From contig PCAK01000039.1 of the NCBI GenBank assembly GCA_002730525.1, forward strand, positions 1 through 63,860: 63,860 nucleotides of DNA. The letters are read 5' to 3'. The translations under genes were made by a program, and so were the position numbers. This stretch comes from Acidobacteriota bacterium (GTDB lineage Bacteria > Acidobacteriota > Vicinamibacteria > Vicinamibacterales > UBA823). Positions 17,129 through 38,160 of this stretch are shown piece by piece; the first letter of the stretch is position 1, and every line of letters starts with the position of its first letter. The notes below the pieces were generated by a model. That model did not search any database. It worked only from the letters and a program-made list of their open reading frames with translations, and had not been told where the DNA came from.

Positions 17129-17710
17129 GTGCTGAAGGTCGAACTCCATACGCATGCGGCCGGCGACCCCGAAGACGCGATTCCGTACGGGCCGACCGAA
17201 CTCATCGACCGCGCCGCGGCGCTCGGGTACGACGCCGTGGCGTTGACGCTGCACAACCGGTAGCTCGACCTGGCCGACCTCGCGACGCACCCGTTCTTCC
17301 CGATCAGCCACTGTCTGCGGGACCGGATGGATCGCCACGCCGCCGTCATCGACGCCGTGGAGGTCAGCTACTTTCACACGCCGCTCATCGACTTCAACGG
17401 CGCGGCGCGGCGGTAGGCTCACGCCCACGACAAGCCCCTGGTCGGATCGTCCGACGTGCACCGGCTCTGCCAACTCGGACGCACCTATTCGCTGGTGGAT
17501 GCGGTACCGACGCCAGACGCGATCTGCGCGGCGATCCGCGCGGGGCGCGTGGAGGTACGAGCGCGCCCGGTGTCGCTCGTTCGGATCGCCGCGCTGCTCG
17601 CCGCGATCAGTATCCGCAACTTCACCACGCGCCTCCGCCCCGCGGCAGACGCAGCCGAACACGACGCCGACCCACCGGATGCCTCGCGCCGCGGAATCGT
17701 CAGCAGCTGA
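17129..17710 (+). pseudogene. Decayed PHP-domain phosphoesterase
   Basis: Read from GTG 17129 in one frame, the sequence gives VLKVELHTHAAGDPEDAIPYG and then LIDRAAALGYDAVALTLHN, the N-terminal metal-binding block of PHP-domain proteins. A TAG stops it at 17261-17263 and another at 17414-17416. Between them, homology jumps to HPFFPISHCLRDRMDRH and DAVEVSYFHT, so an internal segment appears lost. The C-terminal block KPLVGSSDVHRL (17438 onward) and a Gly-Arg tail are recognisable to the end at 17710. Two nonsense codons plus a deletion make function impossible. The end overlaps the agmatinase-like gene. Confidence 0.82.
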
Positions 17711-18509
17711 GCATCCGATCGGCCACCTCCTTCATACACTTCGCGGCGACCATGGCGGTGACGCCGTTGAGATCCCGTACCGGGTTGTACTCCACGATGT
17801 CGGCACCGACGATCGGCACCTGGATCGCCTGGATCACCTTCAGCACGTCCCGAACGCTGACGCCGCCCGGCTCGTGATGCGAGAGACCGGGCGCGAAGGC
17901 CGGATCGAGCACGTCGAGGTCCAGCGAGAGGTAGAGCGGCACCTCGAGTGAGGCCAACACGTCGGCAGGCCAGTCCGCCGCCGTCACCACCTCGACGCCG
18001 AACCGCTCGGCCTGGTCGCGCTGATGCGGCGTCATCGTCCGGATCCCCAGCTGCACCAGCCGGGACGCCAGATTCGCCTCCATGATCCGCGCGAACGGAC
18101 AGGCATGGGACAGCTTGTCGCCCTCGAGTTCGTCGTAGAGATCGGGGTGCGCGTCGAGGTGGAGAATCGTCAGCCGGTCGTAGCGTCCGGCGAACGCGCG
18201 AACCACGGGATACGTGATCGCGTGGTCACCGCCGAGAATGAGCAGGCGGTCACCGCTTTCCAGCAGCTCGGCCACCCCCCGCTCGATCGCCCCGAACGCC
18301 GCGGCGCCGGTCGGCAGCTGAAGGTCGCCGGCATCCCGGAATCGGTCCTCGGCACCGAGGTCGCGACCCGCTTCAGTCGCCAGATTCGCCGACGGCGAGT
18401 GCAGCGCCTCGCGGATCTTGGGCGGCGCCTCGGCCGGCCCGCGCAGAAATGACGAGCTTTCGTCGAACGGGATGCCGACCAGCGTGACGTTGGGAGATGT
18501 CGGGTTCAT
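17700..18509 (-). CDS. Agmatinase/arginase family ureohydrolase
   Basis: About 269 residues from ATG 18509 (MNPTSPNVTLVG); the longer upstream extension is low-complexity. Binuclear Mn ligands are visible in GGDHA, HLDAHPDLYDE and SLDLDVLDPAFAPG, the three signature blocks of the ureohydrolase family. These enzymes release urea from agmatine, arginine or guanidino acids, or act on formiminoglutamate; which one cannot be settled here. A TATAAT box lies about 70 bases upstream. It is divergent from the SelA-like gene. Confidence 0.88.
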   Translation of the reverse strand: MNPTSPNVTLVGIPFDESSSFLRGPAEAPPKIREALHSPSANLATEAGRDLGAEDRFRDAGDLQLPTGAAAFGAIERGVAELLESGDRLLILGGDHAITYPVVRAFAGRYDRLTILHLDAHPDLYDELEGDKLSHACPFARIMEANLASRLVQLGIRTMTPHQRDQAERFGVEVVTAADWPADVLASLEVPLYLSLDLDVLDPAFAPGLSHHEPGGVSVRDVLKVIQAIQVPIVGADIVEYNPVRDLNGVTAMVAAKCMKEVADRMLSC

Positions 18510-18576
18510 CTGAACTCTTCGGCTGGATGAGGGTCGCGCCGGCACGGAAGAGTTGATCGCGCGGGCCGAAGGCGGA

Positions 18577-18582
18577 ATTATA
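18577..18582 (-). promoter_or_regulatory. Putative -10 box of the ureohydrolase gene
   Basis: TATAAT on the minus strand, 68 bases upstream of ATG 18509, in the short divergent spacer shared with the SelA-like gene. No convincing -35 box is seen. Confidence 0.4.
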
Positions 18583-18623
18583 GCCGACACAGAGACACCG
18601 CCATGCCGGCGGAGGGAGGCCCC

Positions 18624-19874
18624 ATGCAACATTCGACGAGGTACACGCCCCAGAATTGGTCGCGCCGCCGGTTCCTGGCATCTGCCGGCACGGCGCCGGT
18701 CGCCGGTCTCCTGGCCACCGGCTGCGCGCCGCCCGCGCCGGCGCCGGCCGAGACCGCCGAAGCCGTCGACGTCTATGGCCGCCTGGGCGTCCAGCCGTTC
18801 ATCAACGCGGCCGGCACCTACACCGCGCTGACCGCCTCGCTGGTCCCGGCCGAGGTGCGCACCGCCATGGCCGCGGCGTCACAGCAGTACGTCGCGCTCG
18901 CCGAGCTGCACGCCGCTGCCGGGGGCCGGATCGCCGGACTGGTCGGCGCGGAAGCCGCCCTCGTCACCTCGGGTGCGGCGGCCGCGCTGACCCAGGCGAC
19001 GGCGGCCTGCGTCTGCGGCACCGATCAGGACGCGATCCGCCAGGTGCCCGACACGACCGGTCTCAAGAACCAGGTCGTGATCCAGCGGTCGCACCGATTC
19101 GGCTACGACCACGCCATCCGTAACGTCGGGATCGAACTGGTCGAGGTGGAGACGCGCGCCGAGCTGGAAGCCGCGATCGGCGACGACACGGCGATGCTCT
19201 TCTACCTGAACTCAGCGACCAATCAGGGGCAGATTTCCCGCGAGGAGTTCGCCGAGGTCGGTCAGACCGCCGGCGTCCCGACCCTGATCGACGCGGCGGC
19301 CGACGTGCCGCCCGTCGATAACCTACGCACATTCACGCGGATGGGCTTCTCGCTCGTCGCGTTCAGCGGCGGCAAGGGCCTGCGCGGGCCGCAGTGCTCG
19401 GGCCTGCTGCTAGGCCGCCGCGATCTCGTAGACGCGGCATATCTGAACGGCTCACCCCACGGGAATTCGATCGCGCGCATCGCCAAGGTCGGCAAGGAGG
19501 AGATCGTCGGCCTGACGCGCGCCGTCGAGCTGTACGTCGAGAAGGATCACGAAGCCGAGTGGGCCGACTGGGAAGCACGCGTCCAGGCGATCGTCGACGC
19601 GGTCGCCGGCATCCCCAGCGTCGAAGCCGAGCAGTTCGTCCCGGAGCTGGCCAACATGGTGCCGCACGCCGGCATCACCTGGGATCCGGAGCGGATCCCG
19701 CTGATGCGTAGCGACGTCGCCGAGGCGCTGCGCGACGGCGAGCCGCGGATCGAGCCACGGCCGGGTCCCGCCGACGCGCCCCGGCTCGACATCGGCGTCT
19801 GGATGATGCAGCCGGGCGATCACGAGGTGGTCGCCGCACGCATCGCCGAGATCCTGTCCGCGGCAGCGGCGTAG
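18624..19874 (+). CDS. TAT-exported SelA-like PLP enzyme
   Basis: About 416 residues from ATG 18624, chosen because GGGAGG lies just upstream; ATG 18603 is an alternative. A twin-arginine signal (SRRRFL, 13-18) is followed by a possible lipobox ATGC (C34). The fold is that of the SelA / DgaE family (D-glucosaminate-6-phosphate ammonia-lyase), which uses PLP. The Schiff-base Lys is K251 in FSGGKGLRGP and the ring Asp is D223 in LIDAAAD. Known relatives are cytoplasmic lyases, so export of a folded cofactor enzyme is notable. The convergent neighbour is an exported amidohydrolase of the type often paired with this family, which suggests one periplasmic pathway. Confidence 0.85.
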   Translation: MQHSTRYTPQNWSRRRFLASAGTAPVAGLLATGCAPPAPAPAETAEAVDVYGRLGVQPFINAAGTYTALTASLVPAEVRTAMAAASQQYVALAELHAAAGGRIAGLVGAEAALVTSGAAAALTQATAACVCGTDQDAIRQVPDTTGLKNQVVIQRSHRFGYDHAIRNVGIELVEVETRAELEAAIGDDTAMLFYLNSATNQGQISREEFAEVGQTAGVPTLIDAAADVPPVDNLRTFTRMGFSLVAFSGGKGLRGPQCSGLLLGRRDLVDAAYLNGSPHGNSIARIAKVGKEEIVGLTRAVELYVEKDHEAEWADWEARVQAIVDAVAGIPSVEAEQFVPELANMVPHAGITWDPERIPLMRSDVAEALRDGEPRIEPRPGPADAPRLDIGVWMMQPGDHEVVAARIAEILSAAAA

Positions 19875-19884
19875 GGCCGGGCAA

Positions 19885-19918
19885 GGTGGCGCGGTGAAGG
19901 CTGGTGGCCCGCGCCACC
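19885..19918. terminator. Hairpin between convergent genes
   Basis: Arms GGTGGCGCG (19885-19893) and CGCGCCACC (19910-19918) with a 16-base loop, sitting just after the SelA-like stop and before the convergent amidohydrolase stop. No T-run follows. It shares GGTGGCGCG with the repeat at 31185 and may be a dispersed repeat that doubles as a bidirectional terminator. Confidence 0.5.
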
Positions 19919-19947
19919 ACCGTGGAGATGGGGCGCGCCACCATACT

Positions 19948-21192
19948 CTAGGGCGTCCAGGGGGTGCCGGCGCGGCCGTTCAGGTCCCAGACGATCCGCC
20001 CGGCGCGCACGGTCAACTCCGCCTCGAGCTTCCGGCTGCCCTGCATCGTCTGACCGCCGACGTCGAGGAACCCGAACTCGCCTTCCCGCACGGCGATGAC
20101 CGCGACGTCGGCTTCGGCGCCGACGCTCAGGTGGCCGATGTCGTCGCGGTGAATCGCCTGTGCCGCCGCCCAGGTCGACTTGGCCACGACGTCGGGCAGC
20201 GACATCCCGATGTTCAGGAACTTCGACCCCACGTTGAGCATGTCCTTCATTCCGCCGTTCATGCTACCGATGTGGAGGTCGGTGCTGATCGTGTCTGGCG
20301 GGAACGCCTGCTGCATCGCCGGCACCGCCTGACTGAACCTGAAGCTGCCGCCACCGTGCCCGACGTCGAAGACGATGCCTCGCGCGCGCGCGTCGGCCAG
20401 GTAGGGCTTCAGACGGCCCTCGTCATCGACGATCGCCTCGCGTCCACCCACCTGCGCGTAGGCGTGCGTGAAGATGTCGCCCGGCCGGAGGTGGTCGAGG
20501 AACAGCTCCTGGAGCGGCAGGTCCGGCTCCTGGCGGCCGAAATCGACCGCGACGGGGATCCCGGCCAGGTTGCCCGCCTCGACCGCGCGGTCCACCGGCT
20601 CCCACTCGTTGCCGATGTAGTGCGCGACCTTGACGCCGACGATGATGTCGGAGAACTGCGCCGCGCGCTGCGCCGTCAGCTTCGGGTCCATGTCGCTGAC
20701 ATCCTGCTCGATCGGCCCACCCTTCATCCCGCGACCGACGATGTTGAGGAACGCGAGGACCCGCGTCTGGGAGCGGTCGATCACCTGCTCCTTGAACTGG
20801 ACGAAGTCGCGCCAGCCGGCATCACCCAGGTCGATGACCGTCGTCACGCCGGACCTGAACGTGAAGCCGTCGGGTTGCACCGCGCTGTAGCCGTCGCTGT
20901 AGGCCTGATCCGGCTGCGTGCCCCAGAAAACGTGCGCGTGCAGATCGATCAGCCCCGGCGCCACGACGAGGCCGGTCGCGTCGACGACCGTCTCGGCCCG
21001 TGCCGGGTCGATCCCGGCCGCGACTTCCGCGATGACGCCGTCGGCGATTCCGACGTCCATGACGGCATCGATGCCGTTGCGCGGGTCGATGACGCGACCG
21101 CCCTGGATCAGCAGGTCGAGCGACTGGGCGTAGGCCCCGGTCGCACCGGCGAGTAACACGAAGACGGGAATCGCAGCAAATCGAGCGCGCAT
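19948..21192 (-). CDS. Exported dihydroorotase-like amidohydrolase/deacetylase
   Basis: 414 residues. A Sec signal (MRARFAAIPVFVLLAGATGAYAQ) predicts periplasmic location. The amidohydrolase barrel carries GLIDLHAHVFWG (HxH), a candidate carboxylated lysine in VGVKVAHYIG, FTHAY, VFDVGHGGGSF and the metal Asp in DTISTDLH. This is the deacetylase/dihydroorotase-like subgroup. Relatives of this subgroup are commonly found beside SelA/DgaE-like PLP enzymes, and such a gene converges on it here. A combined N-acyl or cyclic-amide removal followed by PLP-dependent elimination is a reasonable inference; the substrate is unknown. Confidence 0.85.
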   Translation of the reverse strand: MRARFAAIPVFVLLAGATGAYAQSLDLLIQGGRVIDPRNGIDAVMDVGIADGVIAEVAAGIDPARAETVVDATGLVVAPGLIDLHAHVFWGTQPDQAYSDGYSAVQPDGFTFRSGVTTVIDLGDAGWRDFVQFKEQVIDRSQTRVLAFLNIVGRGMKGGPIEQDVSDMDPKLTAQRAAQFSDIIVGVKVAHYIGNEWEPVDRAVEAGNLAGIPVAVDFGRQEPDLPLQELFLDHLRPGDIFTHAYAQVGGREAIVDDEGRLKPYLADARARGIVFDVGHGGGSFRFSQAVPAMQQAFPPDTISTDLHIGSMNGGMKDMLNVGSKFLNIGMSLPDVVAKSTWAAAQAIHRDDIGHLSVGAEADVAVIAVREGEFGFLDVGGQTMQGSRKLEAELTVRAGRIVWDLNGRAGTPWTP

Positions 21193-32113: not shown

Positions 32114-33352
32114 TCATGCCGCGAGCCCCAGTACCCGTTCGGCGTTCTGATGATAAACCTTCCGAAGAATCGGCTCCGGCAAACCGAGGCCGTGAATCCG
32201 CCAGCGCCCCTGAGGCGGAACCGGCGCCGGCGCGTAGTCGAAGTACTCGTCTTCCGTTTCGAGGAACCGGTAGTAGATCTCGTACAGCGCATCGCCGAAG
32301 ACCTGCTGCGGTGTCGCGTCGCCCTCGGGCGAGGGAATCGCATCGGTGCCGAACAGGATCCGGTCCTGGTAGGCCTCGAAGAAGCGTCGCGCTCCGCGCG
32401 GCTGACGGCCCAGTTCCCCGACGCGCGCGCCGATCTCCACATGAAAATTCGGAAACCGGTCGAGCGCCTCACCCACCGCCGCCAGGTTCTCCGCCCAATG
32501 CCCCACGTGTAGACCGATGAAGGTCGTCCCGGGATGGCGCGCCAACACGCGATCGCGCGCGGCCAGCAGTTCGGCGTTGCTGGGAAAGTCACTGCCGTGG
32601 AACGACCAGTCCGGATGCGCGTGCAGTTCTTCGTATCGCTCGTTGAACCGATCGATCGGCAGGAAGAATGCCTCCGGATCAGAGACGTGAATCGCCACGG
32701 GCATGTTCAGCGCGGCGCAGGTCTCCCACATCGGATCGAACCGCGCATCGTCGACGGCAACGAGCGGGCCGCTCGTGATCTGCTCGCGCAGGTACAGACC
32801 AAGCGTCTTCGTGAGTTTGAGGCCGCGCGCGCCCGCCGCGTGGTCCCGCTCGAGCTGCTCGGCCTGAAACCGCGGATAGTCGGGGTCGGCGGCCCGATTC
32901 CACGACGGTTCGGTGAAGGTGATGAATCGTCCCGGGTGCGCCTCGTCGAACTGGCGCCGCGCGACCATCAGGCCCGGACCGACGCCGCCAGTCAAGTTGA
33001 CCATCGTCCGCACGCCCTTGCGATCCATCACCGGCAACACGGCCGAGGGTTCGCCCAACTTGCGGATCCGCTCGCCGAACGGATCCGGGCCGAGCGGCAC
33101 GTCGGACCACGTCAGGTGCGTATGCACGTCGATGACCGGAAACCGAGGCTGCTCCACCCGTGTTTCGGAGACGTGGAGCATGCTGCGGGGTTCGAACTCC
33201 GGGAGCGCGACGGCGCTCTCCCCCGCGTCGCCGACATCGGCATCGGCAAAGGGCGCGGGCGCCTCGCCCGCCGGGGCGCAACCCGCGCCGAAGGCCGCCG
33301 CGGTACCGGCCAGCCACTCCCGCCGACTCCACCCCGTCCGCCTCATCATCAT
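32114..33352 (-). CDS. TAT-exported amidohydrolase (amidohydrolase-2 type)
   Basis: 412 residues (start at any of three successive ATG). A twin-arginine signal (SRREWLAG) is followed by a lipobox-like GAGC, suggesting a TAT lipoprotein. The barrel has VIDVHTHLTW (HxH), VAIHVSDPEAF, FIGLHVGHWAENL and the metal Asp in RILFGTDAIPSPEG, the layout of the amidohydrolase-2 / ACMSD-like family that decarboxylates or hydrolyses aromatic and amide substrates. The start overlaps the stop of the upstream M19 dipeptidase by four bases, so the two exported enzymes are coupled. Confidence 0.87.
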   Translation of the reverse strand: MMMRRTGWSRREWLAGTAAAFGAGCAPAGEAPAPFADADVGDAGESAVALPEFEPRSMLHVSETRVEQPRFPVIDVHTHLTWSDVPLGPDPFGERIRKLGEPSAVLPVMDRKGVRTMVNLTGGVGPGLMVARRQFDEAHPGRFITFTEPSWNRAADPDYPRFQAEQLERDHAAGARGLKLTKTLGLYLREQITSGPLVAVDDARFDPMWETCAALNMPVAIHVSDPEAFFLPIDRFNERYEELHAHPDWSFHGSDFPSNAELLAARDRVLARHPGTTFIGLHVGHWAENLAAVGEALDRFPNFHVEIGARVGELGRQPRGARRFFEAYQDRILFGTDAIPSPEGDATPQQVFGDALYEIYYRFLETEDEYFDYAPAPVPPQGRWRIHGLGLPEPILRKVYHQNAERVLGLAA

Positions 33353-34491
33353 CCGACGACCTCCCTGAACACCCGCACGTAGTTGCCGCCGAGGATCTTC
33401 TCGATCGTCGCCGGCCGATAGCCACGCGCGTCCAGCGCCTCGGCCAGGTGCAACAACCGCCGCGGGTGGCTCAGTTCGGGCACGCGCATGTGCCGGATCT
33501 CCCAGGCCAGCTCGGGATACTCCTGTCGGCGCCGCTCGAAACTCCCGTTGTGATCGGCCACCTCGGTCGGCCGCATCGCCGTCATGTCGACGGCGTCCTG
33601 ATCGGTGCCCACGCCGACGGCATCCTCGCCGCCCAGGTCGATGACATGCGCGAGGTGGGCGATGAAGTGATCGATCGAGATCTCGGGGTCCTGGGTGAGC
33701 CAGCCGCTCTGGTTGTAGACGCAGAACACGCCCCCGCGTTCCGCGAGCGCCCGGACGTTGCGGTCGCTGACGTTACGCGGGTGCGGGCACAGCGGCAGAC
33801 ATCCCGAGTGCGAGTAGATCGCTGGATTCGGCGACGCCAGGATGGCGTCGAGCGACGACCGCTCGCCGACGTGCGACAGATCGACGAGGATGCCAAGCTC
33901 GGCGAACGCTTCGACGGTCTGGTGACCGAACCGGCTCAAGCCGGCGTTCGTGTGCTCCCAGCAGCTGTCGACGAGATAGTTGCGGCTGCCGTCCGCCAGC
34001 TGGATCTGACGGACGCCCAGCTCGGCGAACGTCCGGAGCTTCGCCAGGTCCCACCCGAACGGCGCGGACATCTGGAAGCAATAGATGAAACCGACGTGCC
34101 CCGACTGCTTGACTGCATCCAACTCCGCGGTCGTCGTCACCTTGCGAAACACGTCGGGATTGGCCGCCACGATCGCGTCCCACGTGGCGATCCGATCCTT
34201 CACCGCCCCGAACATGTTCTCGACCTGGCTCAACTCCGCGAAGTTCGAGGTCATGTTCATGGCCATCGCCGTGAGACCAGACGTGCGGAGCGCCTCGACC
34301 TTGTCGGGGGTCAGGTACTGCACGAAGGTGGCCGGCGGCGGGGCCATCGCGAAGCACATCGCGTCGATGGCGTAGGCGCGCGCGTAGATCTCCGCGGGTG
34401 CACCGGAGGCCTGTGGCATGGCCGCCGGCCGGGCCGTGGCTCCGGCGACGGCGCCCGCACCGACCGTGCCGAGGAATTCGCGGCGGTTCAT
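33349..34491 (-). CDS. TAT-exported M19 membrane dipeptidase-like protein, variant metal site
   Basis: 380 residues from ATG 34491, preceded by AAGGAG. A TAT signal NRREFLGT opens the protein. M19 features are clear: DLSHVGE (H207) and IYSHSGCLPLCPHPRNVSD (H228) supply one zinc site, and GVGTDQDAVD carries the late Asp. The first metal pair HxD, normally in a DGHND-like motif, is replaced by IDAMCFAM (42-49), and the bridging Glu position reads YCFQ (137-140). One of the two zinc sites is therefore missing. Usual substrates are dipeptides, often with a D-residue at the C-terminus. Coupled to the amidohydrolase by a four-base overlap. Confidence 0.85.
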   Translation of the reverse strand: MNRREFLGTVGAGAVAGATARPAAMPQASGAPAEIYARAYAIDAMCFAMAPPPATFVQYLTPDKVEALRTSGLTAMAMNMTSNFAELSQVENMFGAVKDRIATWDAIVAANPDVFRKVTTTAELDAVKQSGHVGFIYCFQMSAPFGWDLAKLRTFAELGVRQIQLADGSRNYLVDSCWEHTNAGLSRFGHQTVEAFAELGILVDLSHVGERSSLDAILASPNPAIYSHSGCLPLCPHPRNVSDRNVRALAERGGVFCVYNQSGWLTQDPEISIDHFIAHLAHVIDLGGEDAVGVGTDQDAVDMTAMRPTEVADHNGSFERRRQEYPELAWEIRHMRVPELSHPRRLLHLAEALDARGYRPATIEKILGGNYVRVFREVVG

Positions 34492-34564
34492 GAGAGGCTC
34501 CTTGTGTTCCAGGGTTGACGCCACCGGAATATAGCATGCGCCCCAACGCCCGGAGACGTCGGGC

Positions 34565-36927: not shown

Positions 36928-38160
36928 ATGACCAGGAATGAATTCTCTCGGCGGCGGTTCCTGCGTGACGGTGCGGTCGCCTCAGCCGCAGCCTGGGCGG
37001 CCCCGGCAGCGCTCTCCGGAGCCACGCACCCGTCCAACGCCGACTATCTCGAAGTGGGCCTACCGAAGTCAGAATTGCTGACGCCGGCGCTCTGCATCGA
37101 CCTGGATGCCCTGGAGGCAAACATCGACACGATGCAGTCGACCGTCTCCGCGAACGGGATCGGCGTCCGTCCCCACACCAAGACCCACAAGACCCCGGCG
37201 ATCGCCCATATGCAGATGGCGCGGGGCGCTGTCGGCATCTGCACCGCCAAGCTCACGGAAGCCGAGGTGATGTTCGAGCACGGCCTCGACGAGATCCTGC
37301 TGACGACCCCCAACGTGTCGGCGGCGAAGATTCGCCGCGCGATGCAGCTTCGCACACGGTGCGACGGTTTCGTGCAGGCGGTGGACACGGAGGCGAATGC
37401 GCGCGACCTCGGCGACGCGGCACGCGAGGCCGGCATCGTCGCCGACATCGTGATCGACGTCGACCCGGGTGGCCACCGCACCGGCGTCACGGCAGGCGAG
37501 CCCGCTCTGGCCCTCGCGCAGCTCGTCGACAGCCTTCCGAGCCTCCGCCTGCGCGGCATGCTCTGCTACGACGGCGGCGCCCAGCACGTCTCCGGCTTCG
37601 AGGCGCGTCGAACGCGGGCGATCGAAGGGCTGGCGCCGGCAGCCGAGACGTTCTCGCGGATGCAGCAGTCGGGGCTGAACGTCGAGATCTTCAGCGGTGG
37701 CGGCACCGGCACCTACAACATCGATCACGCGACGCCAGGCTTCACCGACGTCCAGGGCGGGAGCTACGTCTTCCTCGACGCGCAGTATCTGTCCATTGGC
37801 GGCGAGGACGACGACGACACCTACAACGACTTCCGGCCGTCGTTGACGATCCTCACGACGGTCGTCAACGCGGAGTACGAAGGGCGCGCGACGACCGATG
37901 CCGGCGCGAAGTCGTGCACGATCAACCGGCCCTGGTCGATCGTCATCGGTGAGACCGGCATGAGCTACACGAGCGGCTCGGACGAGTTCGGCACGATCCG
38001 CTACGAGAATCCGAGTCGGATCTACCAGGCCGCCGACCGTCTGGAACTGATCGTGTCGCACTGCGATCCGGTCGTGAATCTCTACGACAAGATGTACGCG
38101 ACGCGGAACGACCGCGTGGAGGCGGTCTGGCCGATCGCCTGCCGCGGCAGGAATCAGTGA
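36928..38160 (+). CDS. TAT-exported D-threonine aldolase-like PLP protein
   Basis: 410 residues with a twin-arginine signal (SRRRFLRD, 7-14). The fold type III (alanine racemase-like) barrel carries the PLP lysine K85 in RPHTKTHK. The DSD1/D-threonine-aldolase C-terminal metal motif H-x-D appears in VSHCDPVVNLYD. Known relatives cleave D-threonine to glycine and acetaldehyde, or deaminate D-serine. Export of this cofactor enzyme is unusual. AGAAAGGGAACG upstream may serve as ribosome-binding site. The next gene overlaps its stop by four bases. Confidence 0.88.
   Translation: MTRNEFSRRRFLRDGAVASAAAWAAPAALSGATHPSNADYLEVGLPKSELLTPALCIDLDALEANIDTMQSTVSANGIGVRPHTKTHKTPAIAHMQMARGAVGICTAKLTEAEVMFEHGLDEILLTTPNVSAAKIRRAMQLRTRCDGFVQAVDTEANARDLGDAAREAGIVADIVIDVDPGGHRTGVTAGEPALALAQLVDSLPSLRLRGMLCYDGGAQHVSGFEARRTRAIEGLAPAAETFSRMQQSGLNVEIFSGGGTGTYNIDHATPGFTDVQGGSYVFLDAQYLSIGGEDDDDTYNDFRPSLTILTTVVNAEYEGRATTDAGAKSCTINRPWSIVIGETGMSYTSGSDEFGTIRYENPSRIYQAADRLELIVSHCDPVVNLYDKMYATRNDRVEAVWPIACRGRNQ

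Follow-up and report, generated by a model that had tools for sequence, protein, structure and literature searches.

Both PLP enzymes and RidA proteins are commonly regarded as cytoplasmic, and to our knowledge examples of exported ones are few. The locus described here pairs a PLP enzyme with an amidohydrolase, and several known systems resemble it in part. In the dga pathway of Salmonella, the PLP enzyme DgaE (PDB 7LC0) works on phosphorylated compounds (PMC9529869), whereas an unphosphorylated substrate is proposed in the current work. In the ong pathway of oxidative chitin use in Pseudoalteromonas, a deacetylase and a PLP deaminase convert N-acetylglucosaminate to 2-keto-3-deoxygluconate without phosphorylation; a RidA protein is essential, and an SSS-family transporter is part of the cluster (PMC9537276). 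OngB, however, is D-aminoacylase-like, and both OngB and OngC were predicted by the authors to be cytoplasmic (PMC9537276), whereas the enzymes at the present locus are of the cog3964 and DgaE types and carry export signals. PvdN of Pseudomonas is a periplasmic fold-type I PLP enzyme (PMC6411801, PMC7497351), but it belongs to a class V aminotransferase-like family and serves in O2-dependent siderophore tailoring, outside any catabolic module. Cap15 (PDB 8T7J), which together with DgaE is the closest solved structure, has a beta-hydroxy-alpha-amino acid substrate (PMC7497351); it differs in being an O2-dependent enzyme of antibiotic biosynthesis whose aligned chain has no export signal. For the amidohydrolase, Atu3266 (PDB 2OGJ) belongs to the same cog3964 group and shares the HxH, Lys, beta6 His and Asp ligands, but has a His at beta5 where the exported clade has Asp.

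The two families also occur side by side in clusters whose proteins start without leaders (NF006689/TIGR03583-type amidohydrolase with a TIGR01437 enzyme), and the PLP lysine is kept there as in the pair studied here. The gene order is amidohydrolase, DgaE, KDGP aldolase and lactonase in Klebsiella, and amidohydrolase, DgaE, KDGP aldolase, sugar kinase and gluconate symporter in Priestia; a similar leaderless amidohydrolase/DgaE set is present in Enterococcus faecalis, and Aminobacter has an ABC transporter followed by leaderless amidohydrolase, RidA and DgaE-like genes. The premise of the first-pass annotation, that both families are partners in the cytoplasm, is borne out by the adjacent leaderless genes of Klebsiella, Priestia and Enterococcus. 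These clusters fill an aldolase slot as the exported module does, with a KDGP aldolase instead of RraA, and include a lactonase in Klebsiella. Unlike the exported clade, they have no signals, they keep His162/His163 and the three phosphate-binding arginines of DgaE, and their amidohydrolase has the beta5 His.

The window, which is the whole stretch of 63,860 nucleotides analyzed, is contig C39 of a 3.3-Mb genome that is 99% complete; the closest relatives that bear a name are Acidobacteria MAGs, UBA823 among them. A Tat signal on the PLP enzyme, a Sec signal on the amidohydrolase and a convergent layout had been noticed at first reading, and the ORF coordinates and N-termini confirm all three (Table 1). 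In the N-terminus of the SelA-like protein, MQHSTRYTPQNWSRRRFLASAGTAPVAGLLATGC, a twin-arginine motif is followed by a hydrophobic stretch and then a lipobox-like Cys; GGAGGG lies upstream of the ATG, and an alternative in-frame ATG at 18603 would retain the same signal. The N-terminus of the amidohydrolase, MRARFAAIPVFVLLAGATGAYA/Q, is a Sec-type signal. The genes converge across a gap of 73 bp, in which no terminator-like site was found; folding of this intergenic sequence is no better than that of shuffles (z -0.40), and a terminator common to the pair was rejected. In the window the pair alone is adjacent, and genes for RidA, RraA or sugar oxidases do not lie beside it. The agmatinase-like gene is divergent from the SelA-like gene and probably starts near 18509, because the ORF as listed would overlap the start of the SelA-like gene. 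The agmatinase and EamA neighborhood recurs in two members of the family (L056, L191).

Table 1. Positions of the convergent pair, its signals and further genes of the window
Feature	Position	Strand	Basis
Tat-signal DgaE/SelA-like PLP enzyme, short type, 416 aa (ATG 18624, stop 19874)	18624..19874	+	profiles, alignment, structure model
Twin-arginine signal WSRRRFLASAGTAPVAGLLATGC	18624..18725	+	sequence
cog3964 amidohydrolase/deacetylase with Sec signal, 414 aa (start 21192, stop 19948)	19948..21192	-	profile, sequence
Sec-type signal peptide MRARFAAIPVFVLLAGATGAYAQ, end approximate	21124..21192	-	sequence; kept in linked homologues
Agmatinase-like gene	17700..18632	-	TIGR01230, above cut-off
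Tat-signal Amidohydro_2 protein, adjoining the M19 dipeptidase	32114..33352	-	
Tat-signal M19 membrane dipeptidase	33349..34524	-	
Tat-signal BhcC/D-serine-dehydratase-like fold-III PLP protein	36928..38160	+	PF01168 + PF14031

In profile searches, the PLP enzyme matched PF03841 (SelA) and the DgaE models TIGR01437 and NF047797, with DgaE-family scores far below the cut-offs (191.8 vs 385.3 and 171.4 vs 600 bits). A true selenocysteine synthase was rejected, as TIGR00474 gave 41.8 vs 267.9 bits and the genome has its own SelA on contig C12 (449 bits to PF03841). The amidohydrolase scored above the cut-off of NF006689, the cog3964 amidohydrolase/deacetylase family (431.6 vs 371 bits). Dihydroorotase (PyrC) was rejected for this protein, the best score against the NCBIfam dihydroorotase cut-offs being 64 vs 728 bits, and so was an OngB-type D-aminoacylase, since it belongs to NF006689 and matches D-aminoacylase structures only at E about 1e-4 over ~66 residues. 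In total, the genome encodes five DgaE-like genes, one cog3964 gene and the one separate true SelA.

Homologues of the PLP enzyme at E <= 1e-15 were detected in 20 of 60 relatives. The PLP enzyme is accompanied by a close amidohydrolase in 18 relatives and occurs without it in 2, which are both incomplete genomes; the amidohydrolase alone is present in 1, and neither in 39 (Fisher p = 3.7e-12, in a count that ignores the kinship of the genomes). Linked pairs were found in convergent, divergent and both tandem arrangements, which inheritance of a single arrangement would not give. Chance pairing is ruled out by the co-occurrence and the four orientations, and, as judged from these genomic patterns, the pairing of the exported PLP enzyme with the amidohydrolase is under selection. 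Across 85,000 species genomes, scanning yielded at least 80 loci in Acidobacteriota, Bacteroidota, Planctomycetota, Verrucomicrobiota and others. Among the 80 loci listed, the amidohydrolase lies within 8 kb in only 10 of the 57 outside Bacteroidota, contig ends being part of the cause. The pair, which the first-pass annotation proposed to look for in other genomes, recurs there with its export signals; signals and pairing are kept in both Acidobacteriota and Bacteroidota, and absence of the signals from homologues, which would have spoken against export, was not what was found.

In Bacteroidota and in other Acidobacteriota, the pair is accompanied by genes for an exported RidA, an exported RraA-type aldolase, a TonB receptor or TRAP transporter, and a sugar oxidase or lactonase. 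The 23 Bacteroidota loci among the 80 listed contain the amidohydrolase (22/23), RidA (23/23), a sugar-dehydrogenase-like protein (18/23), RraA (15/23) and BASS or TRAP transporters (17/23); most of their RidA proteins have Tat signals, and a second RidA resembles a lipoprotein. A relative of the same order has the arrangement RraA, amidohydrolase, triple RidA, short SelA-like enzyme, RidA, TonB receptor and long SelA-like enzyme, with export signals on the enzymes. On the plasmid of Granulicella tundricola, a cultured species, the order is RraA, short SelA-like enzyme, RidA, long SelA-like enzyme, amidohydrolase, lactonase and BBE-type FAD oxidase, and signals are evident on all products except the oxidase. 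The genome of the window itself has DgaE-like paralogues with Tat signals on contigs C32 (two) and C26; a Tat-signal RidA follows one DgaE-like paralogue, several further RidA proteins have signals, and so do both RraA proteins. For the paralogue on contig C9, the aligned match begins at query residue 5, inside the signal region.

These companions suggest a periplasmic catabolic module with the pair at its core, and predicted export of both enzymes and their membership of such a module are well supported by sequence comparison. The module probably carries out deacylation and PLP-dependent beta-elimination on unphosphorylated N-acyl beta-hydroxy-alpha-amino acids, among which N-acetyl-amino-sugar acids are the most likely. 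The substrate would enter the periplasm, in some loci through a TonB receptor, and GSDH- or BBE-type enzymes may oxidize it to an aldonic acid, assisted by a lactonase. The Sec-exported amidohydrolase would then strip the acyl group, probably acetyl, from an N-acyl amino acid such as N-acetylglucosaminate. The Tat-exported PLP enzyme, which would leave the cytoplasm folded and with PLP bound, may eliminate water from the free amino acid to give an enamine/imine and finally a 2-keto-3-deoxy acid and ammonia, the enamine/imine being hydrolyzed by exported RidA proteins. Cleavage of the 2-keto-3-deoxy acid may fall to an exported RraA-type aldolase, and carboxylate transporters of the TRAP, BASS or SSF families would import the products. 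The computations show the two export signals and their conservation, the linkage, the fold, the active-site residues and the companions with signals. From these we infer the substrate, the chemistry, the order of steps and the flux, and the sugar-acid chemistry is suggested by the RraA companions and the sugar-acid neighbors in leaderless clusters, that is, by neighboring genes and not by the enzymes themselves. The periplasmic step of amino-sugar or amino-acid breakdown proposed earlier is thus upheld in outline and extended, on the strength of conserved signals and linkage, from a pair to a putative module. With genes for exported RidA, RraA and lactonase and for uptake in the same module, the case is stronger than could be known from the pair.

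The best surviving alternative, which we consider unlikely, is that the same exported deacylase and PLP lyase act not on sugar acids but on ordinary or D-configured (hydroxy) amino acids in N-acylated or cyclic form, derived for instance from peptides or cell walls. The window encodes a BhcC/D-serine-dehydratase-like PLP enzyme and an M19 dipeptidase, both with Tat signals, and one paralogue in the genome adjoins an alanine racemase whose N-terminus has a signal/lipobox; this paralogue, however, is not the PLP enzyme of the window. Moreover, the conserved clusters hold sugar oxidase, lactonase, CBM9 and aldolase genes, and the leaderless counterparts hold sugar-acid genes, which speaks against this alternative.

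The active sites bear on the nature of the substrate. The AlphaFold2 model of the mature PLP enzyme (pLDDT 94.7) matches DgaE (7lc0) and Cap15 (8t7j) best, both with TM 0.88, and SelA less well (TM about 0.63). The PLP lysine K251, aligned to DgaE K213, is invariant in 99 homologues; it is numbered Lys-217 in PMC9529869 and is residue 213 by the 7lc0 chain count. R265 is the carboxylate-binding residue. The phosphate-binding Arg301/Arg332/Arg346 of DgaE correspond to H348/R379/W393, with W at the third site in 85 of 99 homologues. This loss of phosphate-binding arginines points to a substrate without phosphate, which would be expected outside the cytoplasm, and DgaE and Cap15 both act on beta-hydroxy-alpha-amino acids (PMC9529869, PMC7497351). 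T199 stands where DgaE has H163; across the homologues His163 is replaced in 99/99 and His162 in 95/99, and the loop is shortened. The H163A variant of DgaE retains activity but lets the enamine escape into solution (PMC9529869). By analogy, the exported PLP enzyme may release its enamine in the same way, and the exported RidA would then deal with it. An association with RidA explained by loss of His163 alone is weakened, since cytosolic rhizobial homologues keep His162/His163 yet adjoin RidA.

In the amidohydrolase, the ligands are H85, H87, K188, H243 and D305, which is the cog3964 metal-ligand set (HxH, Lys, beta6 His, Asp) except that the beta5 His is replaced by D217. This site is Asp in all 52 linked amidohydrolases that cover it, and His in 7/7 distant unlinked homologues and in three PDB relatives. 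By these sequence criteria, the amidohydrolase is a divergent clade of cog3964, the NF006689 cut-off being independent of the beta5 site.

The same structural comparison brings in a second and rather improbable alternative: the PLP enzyme would be an oxidase or oxygenase that needs O2, as Cap15 and the periplasmic PvdN do, its export would serve oxygen chemistry, and RidA would hydrolyze the imine it forms. PvdN and Cap15 are O2-using PLP enzymes, the former in the periplasm (PMC6411801, PMC7497351), and Cap15 is structurally as close as DgaE, whose His pair is missing here. The arginines common to Cap15 and DgaE (positions R301 and R346), however, are absent from the enzyme of the window, and the RraA companions and the parallels to DgaE-aldolase clusters fit a 2-keto-3-deoxy product.

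Export signals were called from sequence motif and hydrophobicity rather than with a trained predictor. R14-R15 is invariant in 15 of 15 aligned homologues of the PLP enzyme, down to 39% identity, and Cys34, a possible lipobox cysteine, is kept in four orthologues (L027-L030). Among the 80 loci listed, about 74 of 82 SelA-like ORFs have a Tat-like N-terminus; the remaining 8 comprise one incomplete ORF, two over-long ones, of which L103 clearly reads NRRSFLDLVSSVPGLG further in, and five that appear leaderless (L069, L073, L084, L085, L120). Tat-like N-termini were also counted in 69 of 403 neighboring ORFs, a control that is not clean, as exported companions are included. Sec-type N-termini recur in the linked amidohydrolases. 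The PLP enzyme has the marks of a Tat substrate, namely the Arg-pair motif, a hydrophobic region, conservation in orthologues and a translocase in the genome, which encodes TatC. In the tree, the exported PLP enzymes form essentially one large clade in which the few leaderless members are nested, with five changes in all; the leaderless DgaE, Cap15, Natronococcus and Mesorhizobium proteins fall outside it, and a long-branched Sinorhizobium sequence falls inside. That neither N-terminal sequence works as a signal and both enzymes remain cytoplasmic is very improbable: the five apparently leaderless members indicate that the enzyme can exist without a leader, but close orthologues keep the invariant arginines, hydrophobic stretch and lipobox, the partners have independent signals of different types, RidA proteins also have Tat signals, and TatC is present.

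An exported DgaE/RidA/amidohydrolase pathway was not found described in the literature searched, the coverage of which was partial, with most subscription journals outside it. The setting had been called undescribed in the first-pass annotation; this stands for the exported pair, of which no account was found, but not for a periplasmic PLP enzyme as such, since PvdN is one (PMC6411801). A wider and more tentative reading, which may well prove too broad, is that Acidobacteriota and Bacteroidota conduct a complete PLP-based nutrient breakdown in the periplasm, comprising sugar oxidation, lactone opening, deacylation, ammonia elimination, enamine detoxification by exported RidA and aldol cleavage by exported RraA, with only the products imported. 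If the module exists as proposed, deamination of amino compounds, which are probably amino-sugar acids derived from chitin-like material, would take place outside the cytoplasm in soil and marine bacteria, and functions would be assigned to proteins annotated as "aminotransferase class V-fold", "amidohydrolase/deacetylase", "RidA family" and "RraA family". It also raises the questions of how such enzymes acquire PLP ahead of export through Tat, and whether cells keep enamine chemistry away from the cytoplasm because enamines damage PLP enzymes.

Further observations concern the relatives of the two enzymes. Distant cog3964 homologues (L154, L156-L161) bear Tat signals in place of Sec ones and retain the His at beta5; their hosts are relatives without the short PLP enzyme. 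The long-type DgaE-like homologues (e.g. L014 5563-7233) carry about 100 additional residues at the C-terminus, modeled as an all-beta domain, for which no match was found in NCBIfam (own protein) or Pfam (the L187 homologue). A HisC-like aminotransferase gene on contig C32 (L014 12244-13398) has a Tat signal by eye, and its product is a further predicted exported PLP enzyme. The alanine racemase gene with the signal/lipobox N-terminus lies on contig C9 (L016 5029-6597) immediately upstream of the DgaE-like paralogue, and the same order is found in a sister genome (L193).
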